DNA of 33,274 bases, taken from assembly GCA_016291475.1 (NCBI GenBank), contig JAEEXJ010000028.1, positions 1 to 33,274 of the forward strand, read 5' to 3'. Below the pieces are notes generated by a model. That model ran no database searches. It had not been told where the DNA came from and saw only the letters and a list, made by a program, of their open reading frames with translations. Position numbers and translations under genes: made by a program. This stretch comes from Lachnospiraceae bacterium. Its GTDB lineage: Bacteria; Bacillota_A; Clostridia; Lachnospirales; Lachnospiraceae. Below, piece after piece: positions 12,764-24,174 of this stretch (its first letter is position 1; each line of letters opens with the position of its first letter).

Positions 12764-13591
12764 ATGCCGAGGCGCGCGCGAATAATAAGTAATACGAATA
12801 TATATCATGTAATGATCAGAGGAATCAACAGACAGATTATTTTTGAGGATGATGAAGATTATAAGAAATTTCTTTATATTCTTCTTGATTGTGTAAAGAA
12901 AACAGAATGCCGTATATATGCGTACTGTCTGATGCCTAATCATGTTCATTTACTGGTTGATCCACGTTTTAGCACGATTGAGACTGTTATGAAAAGCATA
13001 GGAATCAGGTATGCAAGATTCTACAATGATAAGTACCAGCGAACCGGTCATCTTTTTCAAGATAGATTTAGAAGTGAGAATGTAGAAGATGATAGATACT
13101 TTTTGGTAGTTCTGCGATATTTTTTGCAAAATCCGTTAAAAGCCGGATTAGAGAATGAGTTAGGCCAATATCCGTGGAGCAGTTATAAAATCTATAAGAA
13201 TAGAAATGATTATATAACAGATGCAAAATTTGCTATAGATTTAGCGGGAGATAAGGAAAAACTACTTGAGTTCCTAAATGAAAAAAATGATGATGAAGCG
13301 ATGGAAATGAAGACGCATCGTAAAATTCGTTTAAATGATGCAAAGGATGTACTTGAGGCGGTTTCAGGCTGCAGAAATGTAGCTGATTTTCAGAACATGG
13401 ATTCAGACGAGCAAGCAAAGACTATTGAAGAACTTTATAAACGAGGACTATCGATGTTTCAAATCAGTCTGTTGTCTGGAAAATCTAAAACAACGATATA
13501 TCGTAAGTTGAAGGGTGAAACGAAAGAGCCGTCCCGCCGTTCCGTTAACAAAAAAGTGGAACGAAAGAACCGTCCCTTCGTTCCACATTAA
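12764..13591 (+). CDS. REP-associated tyrosine transposase (RAYT, Y1/TnpA family)
   Basis: HUH single-strand nuclease related to IS200/IS605 TnpA, thought to cut and mobilise REP hairpins. 275 residues. The HUH pair is H60-V-H62 in PNHVHLLV; the nucleophile is Y119 in RYFLQNPLKAGL. An N-terminal RRAR start and YPWSSY after the active site are family marks. About residues 215-250 add a helix-turn-helix (YKRGLSMFQISLLSGKSKTTIYRKL). Residues 251-275 are encoded entirely by two REP units, so the repeats have become the protein's tail. AAGGAG eight bases before the ATG. The gene is more AT-rich than its neighbours by eye, which suggests acquisition. All catalytic residues are present, so it may be active. 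Confidence 0.93.
   Translation: MPRRARIISNTNIYHVMIRGINRQIIFEDDEDYKKFLYILLDCVKKTECRIYAYCLMPNHVHLLVDPRFSTIETVMKSIGIRYARFYNDKYQRTGHLFQDRFRSENVEDDRYFLVVLRYFLQNPLKAGLENELGQYPWSSYKIYKNRNDYITDAKFAIDLAGDKEKLLEFLNEKNDDEAMEMKTHRKIRLNDAKDVLEAVSGCRNVADFQNMDSDEQAKTIEELYKRGLSMFQISLLSGKSKTTIYRKLKGETKEPSRRSVNKKVERKNRPFVPH
13516..13585 (+). repeat. Two same-orientation REP units at the RAYT 3' end
   Basis: Units 13516-13543 and 13557-13585 share RAACGAAAGARCCGTCCC. The second has 9-bp perfect inverted ends (TGGAACGAA/TTCGTTCCA). Both are the reverse of the family A orientation in hemZ, and both are coding. Confidence 0.85.
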
Positions 13592-17335: not shown

Positions 17336-17498
17336 AAAAGGTCTTAATACCCTGGATTTCGGTCTTTTTTTGTAAGTGTCTGTATTGAGGAACACTTTAA
17401 AAGACTGATACCTGATCAGAGTTATTAATTCGTCTGAATTATAAAAGATAATATAGTCTAGTAAGAGAATTCCCCACGACAAAGAAGGGAGCATGATT

Positions 17499-18119
17499 AT
17501 GGTGAAAAAAACTTTAACTATAGTGGCATTGGGGATGTTTGCTTTTATGCTATCTTGCTGTACGGATGGAGGATGTGAAGAGAAAAATGATGGGGTATTG
17601 TCCGAAGAGGATTCGTTTGAAAATGAATCATTCGATTTTTGCTGGATAGAAACTGAAACCAAACAGGATATATATAATAAGCTAAATTTAGCCATTCGAG
17701 CTGTTGATCAAGATACTTCTTATCACTTGGCAGACGATTTATCACTTTTAGAGACAACGGAACCTGTATATGCATATTGTCTGATTGATGATAAATTTGA
17801 GATGGTAACAATTTATTATCCAATTATTTATAAAGGGCATGTTGTAGCTATGGCGGATGGATATCGATATCTCGAAGGGAATTTCGATATAGATGTAATA
17901 CTTGGGGAAGCAGTTGATGAACTTGATAACAAAAATATAAGCATTCTCTTTGCAAATGGTGTTTATGCATATGATGGAGAAAAAATCACATTTCTTTATT
18001 ATAGTCTTGAATATGATGAAAATAACATAAATTGCCTTGATTCAGAAAAAGAGTATGATTTATCGAATATTCATGTAACAAACATGACCCATACAGAATT
18101 GCTGAATTATCCATTTTAA
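17499..18119 (+). CDS. Unknown lipoprotein, AT-rich
   Basis: 206 residues from the ATG at 17499, which has AGGGAG seven bases upstream; the ATG at 17493 is too close. Signal VKKTLTIVALGMFAFMLSC with a lipid-attachment Cys at 20, then an acidic linker (EEKNDGVLSEEDSFENE). The rest is a mixed alpha/beta domain (YAYCLIDDKFEMVTIYYPII, GHVVAMADGYRYLEG) that I do not recognise; it resembles the repeat-less secreted domains often seen in Lachnospiraceae. It is visibly more AT-rich, with different codon use (ata, aat, tta), than the adjacent ABC operon. It stands alone between two related terminator hairpins. Likely acquired; function unknown. Confidence 0.75.
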   Translation: MVKKTLTIVALGMFAFMLSCCTDGGCEEKNDGVLSEEDSFENESFDFCWIETETKQDIYNKLNLAIRAVDQDTSYHLADDLSLLETTEPVYAYCLIDDKFEMVTIYYPIIYKGHVVAMADGYRYLEGNFDIDVILGEAVDELDNKNISILFANGVYAYDGEKITFLYYSLEYDENNINCLDSEKEYDLSNIHVTNMTHTELLNYPF

Positions 18120-18244: not shown

Positions 18245-18829
18245 TCATTCTTCTATCAGCACTGACTCCGGAGTAAAAAACATATCCTTTCCGATGAGTC
18301 CCATTACCGCACCGCGGTTATATCTGCTGTTGCAAGCTTCCACCAGGGTGTTTTCAAGTTCTTCCATGGAGGGCTCTACATATTTCTTTTGGGATTTGTA
18401 GTTTGCAAAGTTAGCTATAGTGATGATCGAATAGGGCATCATTCCGAACAATCCGACAAAGAGAAGCAGCTGAAAAGGCAGAACTCCGGTGCCAGCCAAT
18501 CCCACGAAGCCGGCAATGGCCATTATCATGAAGATTGAAAGTTTCTTCATACTGCTTAAAAATGCATCGAATTTTCTGTCGGAATCATTGAGATACTTTT
18601 CAGCGCAGCATGAGCAATATCCGCCCCAGCACTTGACCCAGTTGCCATGTGCAGTGGTCTCAATCTTATTATCATCCATTACGCTGCGTTCAAGCTTTTT
18701 GTGAACGCAGGAATAATCGCCTCCGAAAAAAGGAATGGGACGAAGCTCTTTTCCGCACTTCGGACATACATCCCCTTCTTTAAGATCGACATAATAAAGA
18801 TCTGTATCACCGTAAATCAGTCTTTCCAT
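18245..18829 (-). CDS. Zinc-ribbon membrane protein of unknown function
   Basis: 194 residues. N-terminal ribbon CPKCGKEL, a further cluster CVHKK...CWGGYCSCC with six Cys in about 75 residues, then two membrane helices (about 96-140: LSIFMIMAIAGFVGLAGT and FQLLLFVGLFGMMPYSII) and a cytoplasmic-looking tail with NSRYNRG. No enzyme motif. GGAG before the ATG and a good promoter upstream. It resembles in plan, not in sequence, the zinc-ribbon protein at 10493. Function unknown. Confidence 0.75.
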   Translation of the reverse strand: MERLIYGDTDLYYVDLKEGDVCPKCGKELRPIPFFGGDYSCVHKKLERSVMDDNKIETTAHGNWVKCWGGYCSCCAEKYLNDSDRKFDAFLSSMKKLSIFMIMAIAGFVGLAGTGVLPFQLLLFVGLFGMMPYSIITIANFANYKSQKKYVEPSMEELENTLVEACNSRYNRGAVMGLIGKDMFFTPESVLIEE

Positions 18830-18900: not shown

Positions 18901-18969
18901 TAGATAGGGGAGAGGTCTTTCTATTATTTCATTTTGACAGTAAAAGTGCCCGGAGATAAAATAAATATC

Positions 18970-19632
18970 ATGTCAAAACCAGTCAGGTGGACAATATGTA
19001 TATGGTGCTTTCTTTATGCTGTGATAATGATTATAGCACTTAAATATGAAAGCAGCGTTCCCATAGGAGAGCTTGGAAGTATCAATCTGCATGCCCTGAA
19101 CAATGCATTCAGGGAGCTGTTTCATTATGAGCAAGCGGGAGGATATTTCAGGTCTCTTTATATTTTTACTGAGATTTTGGGCGCGGTTTCAATTCTTGCC
19201 TGCATTTTCTGGACCGGTCTCGGTATTAAGGATCTGATAAAGTATCGTGATATTAATGATGTTGATAAGAGTATCTTTGCCACATGGCTTTTGTATGCCC
19301 TTGCACTCATCGTGTGGTTTATAACTCAGAAGCTGTCGGTACATTACGCTCCGGTATCGGTGCATCCCAAGAGTGCACTCGTGGTTTCTTTTCCCTGCGG
19401 GAATACATTTCTGATAATCATATCAATGTGCAGTTCCATATATCTGATCGGTTATTTCCTGGAGGAAAAGAAGAGAGCTGTCCTGATCCTTCGCATAATC
19501 TGCATAGCAATACTTGTTTTTGGAATTGTTTTAAGGATGATATGCGGAACAAACTATCTGACTGACATCCTTGGTGCCATCGGATTCGCTGTTCCCGCGG
19601 TGGTGCTGTATTCCTTTGTCTGTGACGTGTGA
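18970..19632 (+). CDS. PAP2-like membrane protein with a degenerate active site
   Basis: About 220 residues with five or six membrane helices. The order of elements follows PAP2 (lipid phosphate) phosphatases: a helix pair, a loop KLSVHYAPVSVHP, SFPCGNT at the place of the family's SFPSGH, and CGTNYLTDILGAIG at the place of R-x5-H-Y-x-T-D-V-x-A-G. The two catalytic His are replaced (Asn in SFPCGNT; Asn before YLTD), so phosphatase activity is doubtful. I chose ATG 18970, although GGAG is 14 bases upstream; a TTG at 18934 would add twelve residues. The family call rests on motif shape and is moderate. No operon partner: it diverges from the zinc-ribbon gene and converges on the HipA-like kinase. 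Confidence 0.6.
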   Translation: MSKPVRWTICIWCFLYAVIMIIALKYESSVPIGELGSINLHALNNAFRELFHYEQAGGYFRSLYIFTEILGAVSILACIFWTGLGIKDLIKYRDINDVDKSIFATWLLYALALIVWFITQKLSVHYAPVSVHPKSALVVSFPCGNTFLIIISMCSSIYLIGYFLEEKKRAVLILRIICIAILVFGIVLRMICGTNYLTDILGAIGFAVPAVVLYSFVCDV

Positions 19633-19654: not shown

Positions 19655-20404
19655 TCATACGTCGCATAGTTTATATAATCTTGAGTACACATTATCTGAG
19701 CCCGGATCTTTGGTTCGCAGATATTTTTTTATTGCGGGAATGTTTAGTTTTAAAGTGGATTTCGATTCGAGATAAGATCTGTTCAGTTCAAAGCTTCCGC
19801 TGAATGCTTTTGCAAATGCCTTACTTTTGTTATCGGTTATATTTTTATCGGGATCATACTTTGAGTTTCCGATGAACAGGCTTTTTCCGTTATCAAATAT
19901 CGGGGCCGGGCGAAATCCCGCCCCATCATATATAAGTCCCAGATTGTTGAAATGCCTGTCTTCATTGAGGATCAGTGCATCCAGCACAAAAGTATTGGCG
20001 AGGTAAGTTGATATGTCCAGCTTGGTATTCTTTTTAACAAAATCAAGAATGTATTCAATCGCATCGTCATAATCCATTTTGGATGTAACTGCTGCAGGGT
20101 CGGTGCCGGAGATGTTAAAATGCAACCGGTATAGAGTTATAAACGATTCGCCGGAAGCGAGAAAATCATTGCTGACACATCCGGTTTCACCATTGATACG
20201 AAGGCTTTTATAAGATACATATTCATTTTGATCGAAATCGCTGATATCCAAAATGCGGGAGACCAGTTCCTCGCAGGATCCCTCGCCGCCGTATCTGTCG
20301 ATCTTGTACCATTTGTTTTCAAAATAATATTTTATCTGAGTTCCGTCACTTGTTCCGTTATCGTTTATCAGATATCTGCTGTCAATGGAAATATCAGGAA
20401 GCAT
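19655..20404 (-). CDS. HipA/HipT-like serine/threonine kinase (toxin-type)
   Basis: 249 residues, matching only the kinase core of HipA. Gly-rich loop DNGTSDGTQ (15-23), probable ATP lysine K34 in KWYKIDR, helix Glu E46, catalytic loop LNEDRHFNNLG (D149, N154) and metal-binding Asp D171 in APIFDNGKSLF. HipA enzymes phosphorylate tRNA synthetases (GltX, or TrpS for HipT) and halt growth; the target here is unknown. The N-terminal subdomain of full HipA (about 100 residues) is missing and seems to be part of the upstream protein. The gene overlaps the end of the HTH gene by 11 bases and has GGAGG before its ATG, so translation is coupled. Its promoter is the operator-promoter at 20984-21013. 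Confidence 0.85.
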   Translation of the reverse strand: MLPDISIDSRYLINDNGTSDGTQIKYYFENKWYKIDRYGGEGSCEELVSRILDISDFDQNEYVSYKSLRINGETGCVSNDFLASGESFITLYRLHFNISGTDPAAVTSKMDYDDAIEYILDFVKKNTKLDISTYLANTFVLDALILNEDRHFNNLGLIYDGAGFRPAPIFDNGKSLFIGNSKYDPDKNITDNKSKAFAKAFSGSFELNRSYLESKSTLKLNIPAIKKYLRTKDPGSDNVYSRLYKLCDV

Positions 20405-20978
20405 AGAAACCTCCCGTAAGTGTTTTATAGTTTATAGTCTCTCCTTCGAATTTGAACCATGTCTTATCCTGAATCATTTTTCCGTGTGTTTTCTTGCATA
20501 TCTCATAGGGATTATATTCTGACAGGCCCAGAGCATTCAGCAGTTTATCGGCATCAGTTCTTTTTTCATCAAAGCATCTGTCTTTGAGTATCTGGCCGAA
20601 TACAAATCTGGGAATCGTATCTGCATAGAAGATCTGTTTGGCGGGGTGGAGTATAAATCTGTCGGCATGAATTTCTTTCTCATCGACAGTAACTGAAGAA
20701 ATAACTTCATCTTCCCACATTAGTAAGAAATTCGGAAATGCTGCCTTATCCTTCGGGTCTGAAAGAGCATATTCCAATGTTCGATACAGTTCGTCCATTG
20801 ACATCCCTGTAAATCTGGCCAGTTTATAGAGTGTTTCGCCCGTAGCGTCGCTAATATCTTTTTTTCCGGTAAAAATATAGTAGACGGTAGAATAAGCCAC
20901 ACCTGAGCGCTCACTCAGAGTGTGGAGATTAAGGGAATAGGCTTTTAATCTGTCGTATAAAAGAGTGTTTTTATTCAT
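20394..20978 (-). CDS. XRE-type HTH antitoxin with a HipS-like C-terminal domain
   Basis: 194 residues. Residues about 5-65 form a Cro/CI helix-turn-helix (LHTLSERSGVAYSTVYYIFTG...LYKLARFTGMSMDEL). The C-terminal part (about 90-194) contains IHADRFILHPAKQIFY...FGQILKDRCF...LLNALGLSEYNPYEICKKTHG, whose last segment looks like the LGL-S-x-D-P-F-x-L-L strand-helix of the HipA N-terminal subdomain (HipS in HipBST systems). So I read it as a HipB-HipS fusion paired with HipT; the HTH part is clear and the HipS part is inference. The ATG has no ribosome site and lies where a transcript from the promoter would begin. Likely represses its own operon through the palindrome. Confidence 0.8.
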   Translation of the reverse strand: MNKNTLLYDRLKAYSLNLHTLSERSGVAYSTVYYIFTGKKDISDATGETLYKLARFTGMSMDELYRTLEYALSDPKDKAAFPNFLLMWEDEVISSVTVDEKEIHADRFILHPAKQIFYADTIPRFVFGQILKDRCFDEKRTDADKLLNALGLSEYNPYEICKKTHGKMIQDKTWFKFEGETINYKTLTGGFYAS

Positions 20979-20983
20979 GTTTA

Positions 20984-21013
20984 AATTTTATCGCAGTTGC
21001 GATAAAATTACAA
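20984..21013 (-). promoter_or_regulatory. Operator-promoter of the HipA-like module; leaderless start
   Basis: A perfect 12-bp inverted repeat AATTTTATCGCA-GT-TGCGATAAAATT covers 20984-21009. On the minus strand it overlays -35 TTGTAA (21013-21008), a 17-base spacer and -10 TAAAAT (20990-20985). The ATG at 20978 begins seven bases after the -10, at the expected transcription start. A bound repressor would cover the whole promoter. Confidence 0.75.
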
Positions 21014-21142: not shown

Positions 21143-22402
21143 ATGGCACTTAATAAGAAGCCCGTTACGGGTATGAAAGATATACTTCCCGAGGAGATGG
21201 CCATCAGGGAGTACGTACAGAAGGTTATAAGCGAAACCTATGCGGGATTCGGATTCACCAGAATTGAGACTCCCTGCGTTGAGACCATCGAGAATCTGAC
21301 CTCAAAGTCCGGAGGAGATAACGAAAAGCTGATCTTCAGGATCCTTAAAAGAGGTGAGAAGCTTAATCTTGAAACTGCTAAGACTCAGGATGATCTGGTG
21401 GATTCGGGACTTCGCTACGATCTGACGGTTCCCCTCGTAAGATATTATTCCAACAATTCATCCGTTCTTCCTGCTCCTTTTAAGGCACTTCAGATGGGAA
21501 ATGTGTGGAGAGCGGACCGCCCCCAGAGAGGCCGTTACAGACAGTTCATGCAGTGTGACATCGATATCCTCGGTGAAGCGGATAACCTTGCGGAAATCGA
21601 GCTGATCCTTGCTACGACAACCACTCTCGGAAAGCTTGATTTTAAGGGATTCGAGATCAGGATAAATGACAGAAGACTTCTCAAAGCCATGGCCGCGTGG
21701 GCGGGTTTTGCAGAGAGCGATTACGACAGTGTTTTCATTACCATCGATAAGATGGATAAGATCGGAATTGACGGAGTAAAGTCAGAGCTGCTTGAAAACG
21801 GGTATGCTGCAGAGACCGTTGAAAAGTACGTTGATCTGTTAAATAAAGCCGTTAAGGGTGAAGCCACTCTCGCAAACATCATGGATACAGTAGGTGAAGA
21901 ACTCGCCAAGGATCCCGTTACCAATCTTGAAGAGATAATCAGTGCGGTTGAAAGCTCAAAGCAGGCAGATTTCAAGATGGTATTCGATCCCACTCTTGTA
22001 AGAGGAATGTCTTATTACACGGGTACTATTTTTGAGATAGCGATTCCCGAGTTCGGCGGAAGCTGCGGAGGCGGCGGAAGATACGATGAGATGGTTGGCA
22101 AGTTCACCGGTCAGAGCGTACCTGCCTGCGGATTCTCCATCGGATTTGAGAGGATCGTACTTCTGCTTACCGAGAAGGGATTCAAGGTTCCCGGAAGCGG
22201 AGAAGGCAAAGCATATCTGATCGAAAAGGGAATCTCCGGAGACCGCCTCAGCGAGATACTTGCAAAGGCAGCGGATGAGAGAAAAGCCGGTAAGAAGATC
22301 CTTACCGTCAGAATGAATAAGAACAAGAAGTTCCAGAAAGAGCAGCTTACAAAAGCCGGCTATACAGAATTTGAGGACTTCTACAGGGAGGCACTGAAAT
22401 GA
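21143..22402 (+). CDS. hisS: Histidyl-tRNA synthetase
   Basis: Charges tRNA-His with histidine; class II. 419 residues. Class II motif 2 is RADRPQRGRYRQF, histidine-specific strands are LVRGMSYYTGTIFE and GSCGGGGRYDEMVGKF, and motif 3 is ACGFSIGFERIVLLL. The C-terminal anticodon-binding domain (after about residue 345) is short and weakly conserved (KAYLIEKGISGDR...RMNKNKKFQKEQL), a form I have seen in Lachnospiraceae HisS. AGGA eight bases before the ATG. Its stop overlaps the aspS start by four bases (ATGA), the usual Firmicutes hisS-aspS pair. Confidence 0.97.
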   Translation: MALNKKPVTGMKDILPEEMAIREYVQKVISETYAGFGFTRIETPCVETIENLTSKSGGDNEKLIFRILKRGEKLNLETAKTQDDLVDSGLRYDLTVPLVRYYSNNSSVLPAPFKALQMGNVWRADRPQRGRYRQFMQCDIDILGEADNLAEIELILATTTTLGKLDFKGFEIRINDRRLLKAMAAWAGFAESDYDSVFITIDKMDKIGIDGVKSELLENGYAAETVEKYVDLLNKAVKGEATLANIMDTVGEELAKDPVTNLEEIISAVESSKQADFKMVFDPTLVRGMSYYTGTIFEIAIPEFGGSCGGGGRYDEMVGKFTGQSVPACGFSIGFERIVLLLTEKGFKVPGSGEGKAYLIEKGISGDRLSEILAKAADERKAGKKILTVRMNKNKKFQKEQLTKAGYTEFEDFYREALK

Positions 22403-24174
22403 TACAGTCTAGAACACATAATTGCGGCGAGCTCAGAAGCGCCGATGAGGGCAAGGAAGTAACTCTTTGCGGATGGGTCGAGAATGTGAGAGAAGTCGGA
22501 GGAAACCTTTCCTTCATCATCTTGAGAGATTTCTACGGCATCACCCAGCTCGTTGCTGAGACCGAAGATATGGTTTCCGCATTCAAGAATATTACCAAGG
22601 AATCAACTGTTCAGGTTACCGGTAAAGTAAGGATCAGAAGCAATAAGAATGACAAGATCCCTACCGGAGACATCGAAGTTGTTCCGGATTCGGTTAAGGT
22701 TCTCGGCAAGAACAGAAATTCAGAGCTTCCTTTTGAGATCAACAGATCCAAAGAAGCTGACGAGGCTACCAGACTTAAGTACAGATATCTGGATCTGAGA
22801 AATCCCGAGGTTAAGAAGAATATCGTACTCAGATGCAATGTTGTTGCCGAGCTCAGAAAGGCAATGACAGAGGAAGGATTCCTGGAGATCACAACTCCCA
22901 TCCTTACCGCATCTTCACCCGAAGGAGCAAGAGACTATCTTGTTCCCGCAAGAAAGCATCCCGGAAAGTTCTATGCGCTTCCTCAGGCTCCTCAGCAGTT
23001 CAAGCAGCTTCTGATGACTTCAGGATTCGACCGCTATTTCCAGATCGCTCCCTGCTTCAGAGATGAGGATGCCAGAGGTGACCGTACTCCCGGTGAGTTC
23101 TATCAGATGGATATGGAGATGGCCTTTGCAACTCAGGATGATGTTCTCGGAGTCCTTGAAAAGGTTCTTGTACCCGTATTCGAAAAGTATGGAATATATG
23201 ACCGTATAACTCCCGCTCCTTTTAAGAGAATTCCTTTCAGAGAAGCTATGGAAAAGTACGGTTCCGATAAGCCCGATCTCAGAATCGACCTTGAGCTTAG
23301 CGATGTAACCGATGTTCTCGGCGGAATCGATTTTGAGCCTTTCAAGGGACAGTGCGTAGAGGCTGTTGTTGTTACTGGATTTAACGCAACCAGAAAGCAG
23401 ATCGATCAGCTTGTTGCAGATGTAGAAGTTCAGACCGCAAGAAAGACCTGCTGGTTCAGAGTAGATGAAAACGGAGAGATCGTAGGCGGTATCGCTAAGT
23501 TCCTTCAGCCCATCAAGGATGAAGTCATCTCTAAGATGAATCTTGAGAACGGATGCTTCGTAGGTCTTGCCGCAGGTCCCAAGGCCGCAGCCCTTAAGAC
23601 CGCAGGTGTTCTTCGTACCAAGCTCGGAACTCTTTGCCCCGAGCATATGGATAAAGAGCAGTATCAGTTCTGTTGGATAGTTGACTTCCCCATGTATGAG
23701 ATCGGTGAGGAGTCGGGCGAGCTTGAATTCTGCCACAATCCTTTCTCAATGCCCGTAGGCGGACTTGAGACTCTTGAAAAAGCAGAAAGAGGAGAGATGG
23801 ATCCTCTCGATATAATGGCTAACCAGTACGATCTTGTTATCAACGGATACGAGTCCGCATCAGGCGCGGTAAGAAACCACGATCCCGAGATCATGGTCAA
23901 GGCATTCGAACTTGTACGTCTCGGAGAGGCTGAAGTTAAGGCTAAGTTCCCCGCTATGTACAATGCTTTTACTTACGGAGCACCACCTCACGCAGGAGCA
24001 GCTCCCGGAGTTGACAGAATGATAATGCTTCTCACCGGCGAAGAGTCGATCCGCGAAGTTATTACATTCCCCATGAACAAGAATGCACAGGATGTCATGA
24101 TGGATGCTCCTTCGGCCGTATCTCAGCATCAGCTTGACGAGCTCCACCTTGCCTGCGTTCCCGTAGAGGAATAA
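22399..24174 (+). CDS. aspS: Aspartyl-tRNA synthetase, bacterial type
   Basis: Charges tRNA-Asp; class II. 591 residues: N-terminal OB-fold anticodon domain (TLCGWVENVRE...FIILRDFYG), catalytic domain with FLEITTPILTASSPEGARDYLVP and CFRDEDARGDRTPGEFYQ-type motif 2, a GAD insertion domain (about 280-420) typical of bacterial AspS, and motif 3 GAAPGVDRMIMLLTG. The presence of the GAD insertion makes it the bacterial rather than archaeal kind. Coupled to hisS by a four-base overlap. Immediately after the stop comes a palindrome-family B repeat. Confidence 0.98.
   Translation: MIQSRTHNCGELRSADEGKEVTLCGWVENVREVGGNLSFIILRDFYGITQLVAETEDMVSAFKNITKESTVQVTGKVRIRSNKNDKIPTGDIEVVPDSVKVLGKNRNSELPFEINRSKEADEATRLKYRYLDLRNPEVKKNIVLRCNVVAELRKAMTEEGFLEITTPILTASSPEGARDYLVPARKHPGKFYALPQAPQQFKQLLMTSGFDRYFQIAPCFRDEDARGDRTPGEFYQMDMEMAFATQDDVLGVLEKVLVPVFEKYGIYDRITPAPFKRIPFREAMEKYGSDKPDLRIDLELSDVTDVLGGIDFEPFKGQCVEAVVVTGFNATRKQIDQLVADVEVQTARKTCWFRVDENGEIVGGIAKFLQPIKDEVISKMNLENGCFVGLAAGPKAAALKTAGVLRTKLGTLCPEHMDKEQYQFCWIVDFPMYEIGEESGELEFCHNPFSMPVGGLETLEKAERGEMDPLDIMANQYDLVINGYESASGAVRNHDPEIMVKAFELVRLGEAEVKAKFPAMYNAFTYGAPPHAGAAPGVDRMIMLLTGEESIREVITFPMNKNAQDVMMDAPSAVSQHQLDELHLACVPVEE

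Follow-up and report, generated by a model that had tools for sequence, protein, structure and literature searches.

In HipBST toxin–antitoxin modules, HipS blocks the kinase HipT by means of Trp65, which is inserted by the Gly-rich loop (as described in the part of PMC10627512 consulted). Gene layout has so far been the basis for classifying HipA, HipBST and the newer Hip families, whose antitoxins seemed unrelated. Ten layouts have been defined, and the portion of that survey used here (PMC8262856) does not describe a helix-turn-helix (HTH) fused to HipS among them. Here we analyse a two-gene locus in a 33,274-nucleotide (nt) stretch of Lachnospiraceae DNA (contig JAEEXJ010000028.1; hereafter the window), composed of a gene for an HTH protein with a HipS-like C-terminal domain (HTH-S protein; S domain) and a gene for a short HipA-type kinase. 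With a probability of roughly 0.75, we read it as an autoregulated HipBST-like toxin–antitoxin module in which HipB and HipS are fused ('HipBS') and followed by a HipT-like kinase core. The computed basis comprises the layout, the catalytic residues, the predicted fold of S, the pairing of S with the kinase, the operator and promoter, and the HTH-S loci without an intact kinase. A fused HTH-S antitoxin was not described in print within the literature searched, which lay outside subscription papers and supplements.

Gene pair and kinase core

Both open reading frames lie at the positions given in a sequence-only reading of the window, and the following features are found in them:

20394..20978, minus strand: HTH-S gene, 194 residues; XRE helix-turn-helix and HipS-like (HipA N-subdomain-1-like) domain; taken to be both antitoxin and autorepressor
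19655..20404, minus strand: kinase gene, 249 residues; HipA-type Ser/Thr kinase core lacking N-subdomain 1; taken to be the toxin
20394..20404, minus strand: overlap (11 nt) between the HTH-S and kinase frames, compatible with translational coupling
20787..20951, minus strand: HTH_3 domain, HTH-S residues 10–64 (Pfam PF01381, E 1.5e-6, above cut-off)
20415..20735, minus strand: S domain, HTH-S residues ~82–188, conserved across 31 sequences
20330..20356, minus strand: Gly-rich loop GTSDGTQIK, kinase residues 17–25 (kinase alignment, 28 sequences)
19943..19960, minus strand: catalytic segment D149–N154 (DRHFNN) of the kinase (kinase alignment)
19892..19894, minus strand: Mg-binding D171 (IFDNG) of the kinase (kinase alignment)

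The kinase had been proposed to be the HipA catalytic core without its N-terminal subdomain, and both parts of that proposal hold. K34, D149, N154 and D171 are present and do not vary among the 28 aligned kinases (the window counted), and neither do G17-T18-S19-D20-G21, Q23 and K25 of the kinase loop. Because just 16 residues precede the Gly-rich loop, N-subdomain 1 is absent, and the fold of a relative (P0193, not found in viral contigs) supports a kinase core without it. Counting back from G-x-Q-x-K, we take T18 to lie at the HipA/HipT autophosphorylation site. The match to HipA_C (E 2.9e-6, 27.5 bits) is below the Pfam cut-off of 30.5 bits, NCBIfam gave a far sub-cut-off match alone, and the best PADLOC match is PDC-M03A (E 3.5e-17). 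For the HTH-S protein, NCBIfam gave no match; its HTH was also matched in structure by VIA. At E ≤ 1e-3, there are 475 kinase homologues (best 120 of 475 listed) and 72 HTH-S homologues, six of which match mainly through the HTH (P0067–P0069, P0071, P0072 and, in part, P0070).

The S domain and its pairing with the kinase

The C-terminal ~105 residues of the HTH-S protein, which include the LGLSEYNPYEI segment quoted in the sequence-only reading, form a conserved domain. Eighteen columns are invariant across 31 sequences, including relatives with another N terminus or none, and all 18 fall within S (among them R134, C135, R140, T164, H165, G166, D171, W174 and F175). The predicted model of S has a HipS-like fold. 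Realignment of Foldseek candidates by VIA matched HipA/HipS chains to S, and among the rows shown, the six confined to S are all of HipA/HipS type; the suggested structural likeness of this part to HipS and the HipA N terminus was thereby borne out at the level of a predicted model. Plain Foldseek of the HTH-S model against the PDB gave no HipA or HipS chain among the best 50 of 445 matches, and the Stl structure 8qe9_2A aligns by VIA to residues 6–66 alone, that is, to the HTH.

The proposed profile relationship to HipS and the HipA N terminus failed in direct comparison, for which no match was obtained, and stood when taken through HipN: a two-step chain connects S to HipN and HipN to HipA-N, and the HipN link is significant against shuffles. 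In the two-step alignment, the loop that bears the HipS plug (Trp65, Glu63) maps to S residues 134–140. Over 75 rows, a set that contains near-copies, R134 and R140 are conserved in 100%, C135 in 95% and an aromatic residue at 136 in 97%; no clear counterpart of HipS Trp65 was found in S by this alignment. In a model of an S–kinase fusion, the two domains fail to superpose jointly on HipA. S matches PADLOC PDC-M03B (E 1.1e-4), and the PDC-M03 label had no match in the literature search. Of 31 S proteins, 12 also match PDC-M69A, with a best value of 4.5e-5; in ten proteins scanned, PDC-M69A was absent at E ≤ 0.01. The HipBS–T arrangement suggested from the sequence is supported in the sense of HipB and HipS roles within one protein beside a HipT-like kinase.

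S and the kinase are a constant pair. In 299 genomes from the family of a Butyrivibrio, S lies beside 55 of 60 kinase matches (the 60 are those among the matches listed that reach E ≤ 1.9e-20; the weaker rows excluded include many in long frames as large as HipA): within 600 nt upstream in 51 (gaps −16 to 149), downstream in 2, and detected by a broader S profile in 2 more (G538 and G327). The five kinases without a detected S comprise two at a contig edge (G274 and G533), G498, G276 (internal stop) and G516 (truncated); 13 of 66 S rows from these genomes, HTH-only rows excluded, lack such a kinase. Among 195 Treponema-family genomes, 7 close kinases (E ≤ 4.6e-74; weaker rows in other genomes, with E ≥ 2.5e-13, were excluded) and 7 partners occur in the same 7 genomes and adjoin in each. 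A scan of genome contigs yielded 33 S loci, with a kinase directly downstream in 26 (cut into by the contig end in L021). Kinase remnants were detected by profile in L006 and L011 and a kinase-like start by eye in L010; L003, L004, L022 and L033 have no kinase, the S gene itself being broken in the latter two. Five of the 33 loci thus retain HTH-S in intact form where the kinase is damaged or missing.

The part preceding S varies: it is an XRE HTH of one of four classes, an HTH of resolvase type, an apparent ribbon-helix-helix, a module with a YYY motif or nothing (classes assigned by reading the sequences, partly by Pfam):

window XRE class: window-type loci
second XRE class: L024, L025
spirochaete XRE class: L019–L021, L023, L032
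MqsA-like XRE class: L105 (MqsA_antitoxin 8.9e-10), L176 (HTH_3 2.2e-8)
resolvase HTH_7: L064 (1.1e-9), L069 (3.3e-6)
apparent ribbon-helix-helix, weak: P0062, P0064–P0066 (best RHH_7 0.0039)
YYY-motif module, unnamed: L053–L055

S also follows the kinase in two Bacillales plasmids (L174 and L175) and is fused to it in one relative. Among 16 loci with S alone, the sole clear three-gene HipBST-like case is L074 (minus strand), in which a separate 56-residue protein, ribbon-helix-helix-like by eye, lies 39 nt ahead of a stand-alone S, followed by the kinase. On a maximum-likelihood tree of 67 kinases, from which the ribbon-helix-helix cases are absent, the layouts need 15 changes (minimum possible 8; shuffled mean 42.5), and the S-alone layout taken singly requires 12, of which supported branches force no fewer than 8. 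We read this as a core of S and kinase whose DNA-binding part has been gained, lost or swapped on repeated occasions.

We put forward tentatively, at slightly under even odds, a wider proposal: that S is a general cap for short Hip kinases and that hipBST, hipJS, hipIN and probably hipRG and hipMP form one combinatorial family, with 'Stl-like' and 'resolvase-like' antitoxin labels hiding a HipS domain. The modules carried on S would then be the four XRE classes, the resolvase HTH, the apparent ribbon-helix-helix, the YYY-motif module and the HIRAN domain of HipN. One cap domain under varied DNA-binding parts, alone or fused to the kinase, suggests a single mechanism behind many layouts, and the natural pieces (S alone, HTH-S, S–kinase fusion) could help to tell the inhibiting part from the sensing part.

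Five metagenome proteins (P0067–P0069, P0071 and P0072) join the window XRE HTH to a nucleotidyltransferase of the Pol-beta type (assigned by Pfam on P0067 and P0069), with 68–69% identity over 35–39% of the query in four and 42% over 76% in P0068. An S domain in these proteins was considered and rejected, the HTH alone being shared; no single match combined HTH and nucleotidyltransferase among the rows of the 299 genomes. This nucleotidyltransferase is presumably of the kind used in MNT antitoxins, and the window-type HTH seems to be common to two unrelated toxin–antitoxin types. A YYYxQWxE module of ~120 residues stands N-terminal to S in L053–L055 and L083–L085. In L056, a putative STAS/DUF4325 protein of 114 residues is encoded directly upstream of the S gene.

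Operator, proposed mechanism and rival explanations

Two regulatory features lie directly upstream of the HTH-S gene:

20985..21008, no strand: palindromic operator ATTTTATCGCAacTGCGATAAAAT, 24 bp, near-perfect, 6 nt 5′ of the ATG
20985..21013, minus strand: predicted promoter, with −35 TTGTAA (21013–21008), 17-bp spacer and −10 TAAAAT (20990–20985), from consensus match and conservation

The stretch marked out in the sequence-only reading ends, at 21013, on this predicted −35 hexamer. The palindrome occurs once in the window, and a match with up to 3 mismatches was found in 3 of 100 shuffles. All 16 loci of the window type for which upstream sequence exists (L001–L004 and L006–L017) carry it 5′ of the gene, with small variants; 13 of them match the strict pattern, and four further matches are second copies from the same genomes. 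Upstream identity was taken over 16 rows (the window, L001–L004, L006–L015 and L017, the flanks of the near relatives L011–L014 counted too; L005, in which the stretch is missing, and L016, whose start is uncertain, were left out). It is 0.90 and 0.87 in −13 to −36, 0.66 in −1 to −12 and 0.27–0.32 beyond −37, and the flanks beyond the operator are unrelated between window-type loci. By eye, every row reads TTG at −35 and has a −10 similar to TAAAAT (TAATAT in L012 and L017), followed by 6 nt up to the ATG that contain no Shine–Dalgarno sequence. Since these 6 nt hold no such sequence, the HTH-S message is probably leaderless, with its predicted transcription start at about the ATG. A generic promoter scan alone gave no more matches than in shuffles. 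In four spirochaete loci (L020, L021, L023 and L032), another palindrome occupies this position.

As HipS caps HipT in HipBST, so S would, by analogy, cap the active site of the window kinase and keep it off. The HTH, probably as a dimer, would bind the palindrome, which overlaps the spacer and the −10 box, and repress the operon; the antitoxin or the complex would thereby set its own level. Upon a shortfall of antitoxin, the kinase would phosphorylate an essential protein, by analogy perhaps an aminoacyl-tRNA synthetase, and growth would stop. The compact promoter–operator and the apparently leaderless antitoxin message would make this a simple system in which to study autoregulation in gut and rumen Bacillota.

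A module serving mainly as an abortive-infection system against phage, in which S and the DNA-binding part sense infection and release the kinase, is a serious possibility, albeit the lesser one; it is compatible with the toxin–antitoxin reading, differing in purpose with the same chemistry. It is favoured by the matches to PDC-M03A and PDC-M03B, a PADLOC defence candidate, by the patchy distribution of the module and the unrelated upstream flanks, and by the HipA/DUF3037 system (HipAD, DS-6), in which, according to the part of PMC13092281 consulted, phage protection needs a predicted catalytic kinase residue. PDC-M03 is, however, a candidate label. By Pfam (no PADLOC scan was made of them), the ten neighbours comprise hisS, aspS, a GGDEF protein, an IS200-type transposase, an ABC transporter set and three family-less proteins. 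The window protein shows no HIRAN (Pfam, E ≤ 1), the domain suggested to sense DNA ends in HipN. The window-type modules have one palindrome by the start codon and the spirochaete-type modules another, which points to plain autoregulation.

The five HTH-S genes kept without an intact kinase weigh against a toxin–antitoxin pair, because HTH-S may then have a function of its own, as it would if the kinase were a regulatory enzyme that phosphorylates HTH-S, its own transcription factor, or another regulator. We consider this unlikely: S occurs stand-alone and also as a fusion with the kinase, which makes a HipS-like domain, and no transcription factor, the constant partner of the kinase, and loss of the kinase with retention of HTH-S is the expected remnant of a toxin. 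It is less likely still, to the point of being improbable, that the likeness of the C-terminal domain to HipS is one of fold alone, without any relationship, given that all six of the rows shown that fall wholly in S are HipA/HipS-type chains, that the HipN link exceeds shuffles and that S keeps its position beside a kinase core that lacks exactly that subdomain.

Directly upstream of HTH-S, on the opposite strand, lie hisS and aspS (21143–24174, plus strand). Their position was considered as a hint to the kinase target and rejected; the adjacency is probably due to chance, because the neighbours differ in L003, L004, L010 and L033. An IS200-like Y1 transposase with an HTH_38 match is encoded at 12764–13591 (plus strand), and the open reading frames at 17493–18119 (plus), 18245–18829 (minus) and 18934–19632 (plus) match no Pfam family at E ≤ 0.001.

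Comparison with known Hip systems

The window module shares with hipBST (E. coli O127, H. influenzae and L. pneumophila) a kinase core without N-subdomain 1, a Ser/Thr at the kinase Gly-rich loop and a HipS-like domain encoded upstream of the kinase (by the model and the two-step profile chain). However, hipBST encodes HipB, HipS and HipT on three genes, whereas HTH and S form one reading frame in the window. The kinase has 249 residues as against 291–346 (in the portion of PMC8262856 used). Its loop reads GTSDGTQ, with invariant, adjacent T18 and S19, rather than the S-aliphatic-S of HipT, and Trp65 lacks a clear counterpart in S.

The hipIN system (HipI kinase and HipN, a HipS-like domain with HIRAN), which by our reading is PADLOC PDC-M03, also has a short kinase and a HipS-like domain; it gives the best PADLOC matches for both window proteins and the profile bridge to HipA-N. 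The window protein has HTH_3 in place of HIRAN (no match at E ≤ 1), and its S part is C-terminal, whereas that of HipN is N-terminal. The window partner gene lies upstream of the kinase, whereas the kinase comes first in L037, L124 and L181.

The same partly consulted survey (PMC8262856) terms HipR an 'Stl-like' HTH protein and HipP 'gamma-delta-resolvase-like', and its section 3 reports no HipS-like domain in either. As in hipRG, an HTH protein and a short kinase share one operon in the window, but HipG is said there to lack Ser/Thr by the loop, where all 28 aligned kinases here, the window's among them, carry T18 and S19. The HTH_7-S relatives (such as L064) resemble HipP as described there; they are encoded upstream, whereas HipP of hipMP is encoded downstream. 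Compared by description, HipR and HipP may be candidate HTH–HipS proteins.

HipAD (DS-6; the HipA/DUF3037 pair is named PDC-M66 in the part of PMC12548924 consulted) likewise pairs a HipA-related kinase with a non-HipB partner on two genes, but that partner is DUF3037/DUF1829, neither of which is in the window protein (Pfam, E ≤ 1). With hipBA, the window shares an HTH antitoxin upstream of a HipA-type kinase; HipA, however, has its own N-subdomain 1, whereas in the window it is the HTH protein that carries that part.
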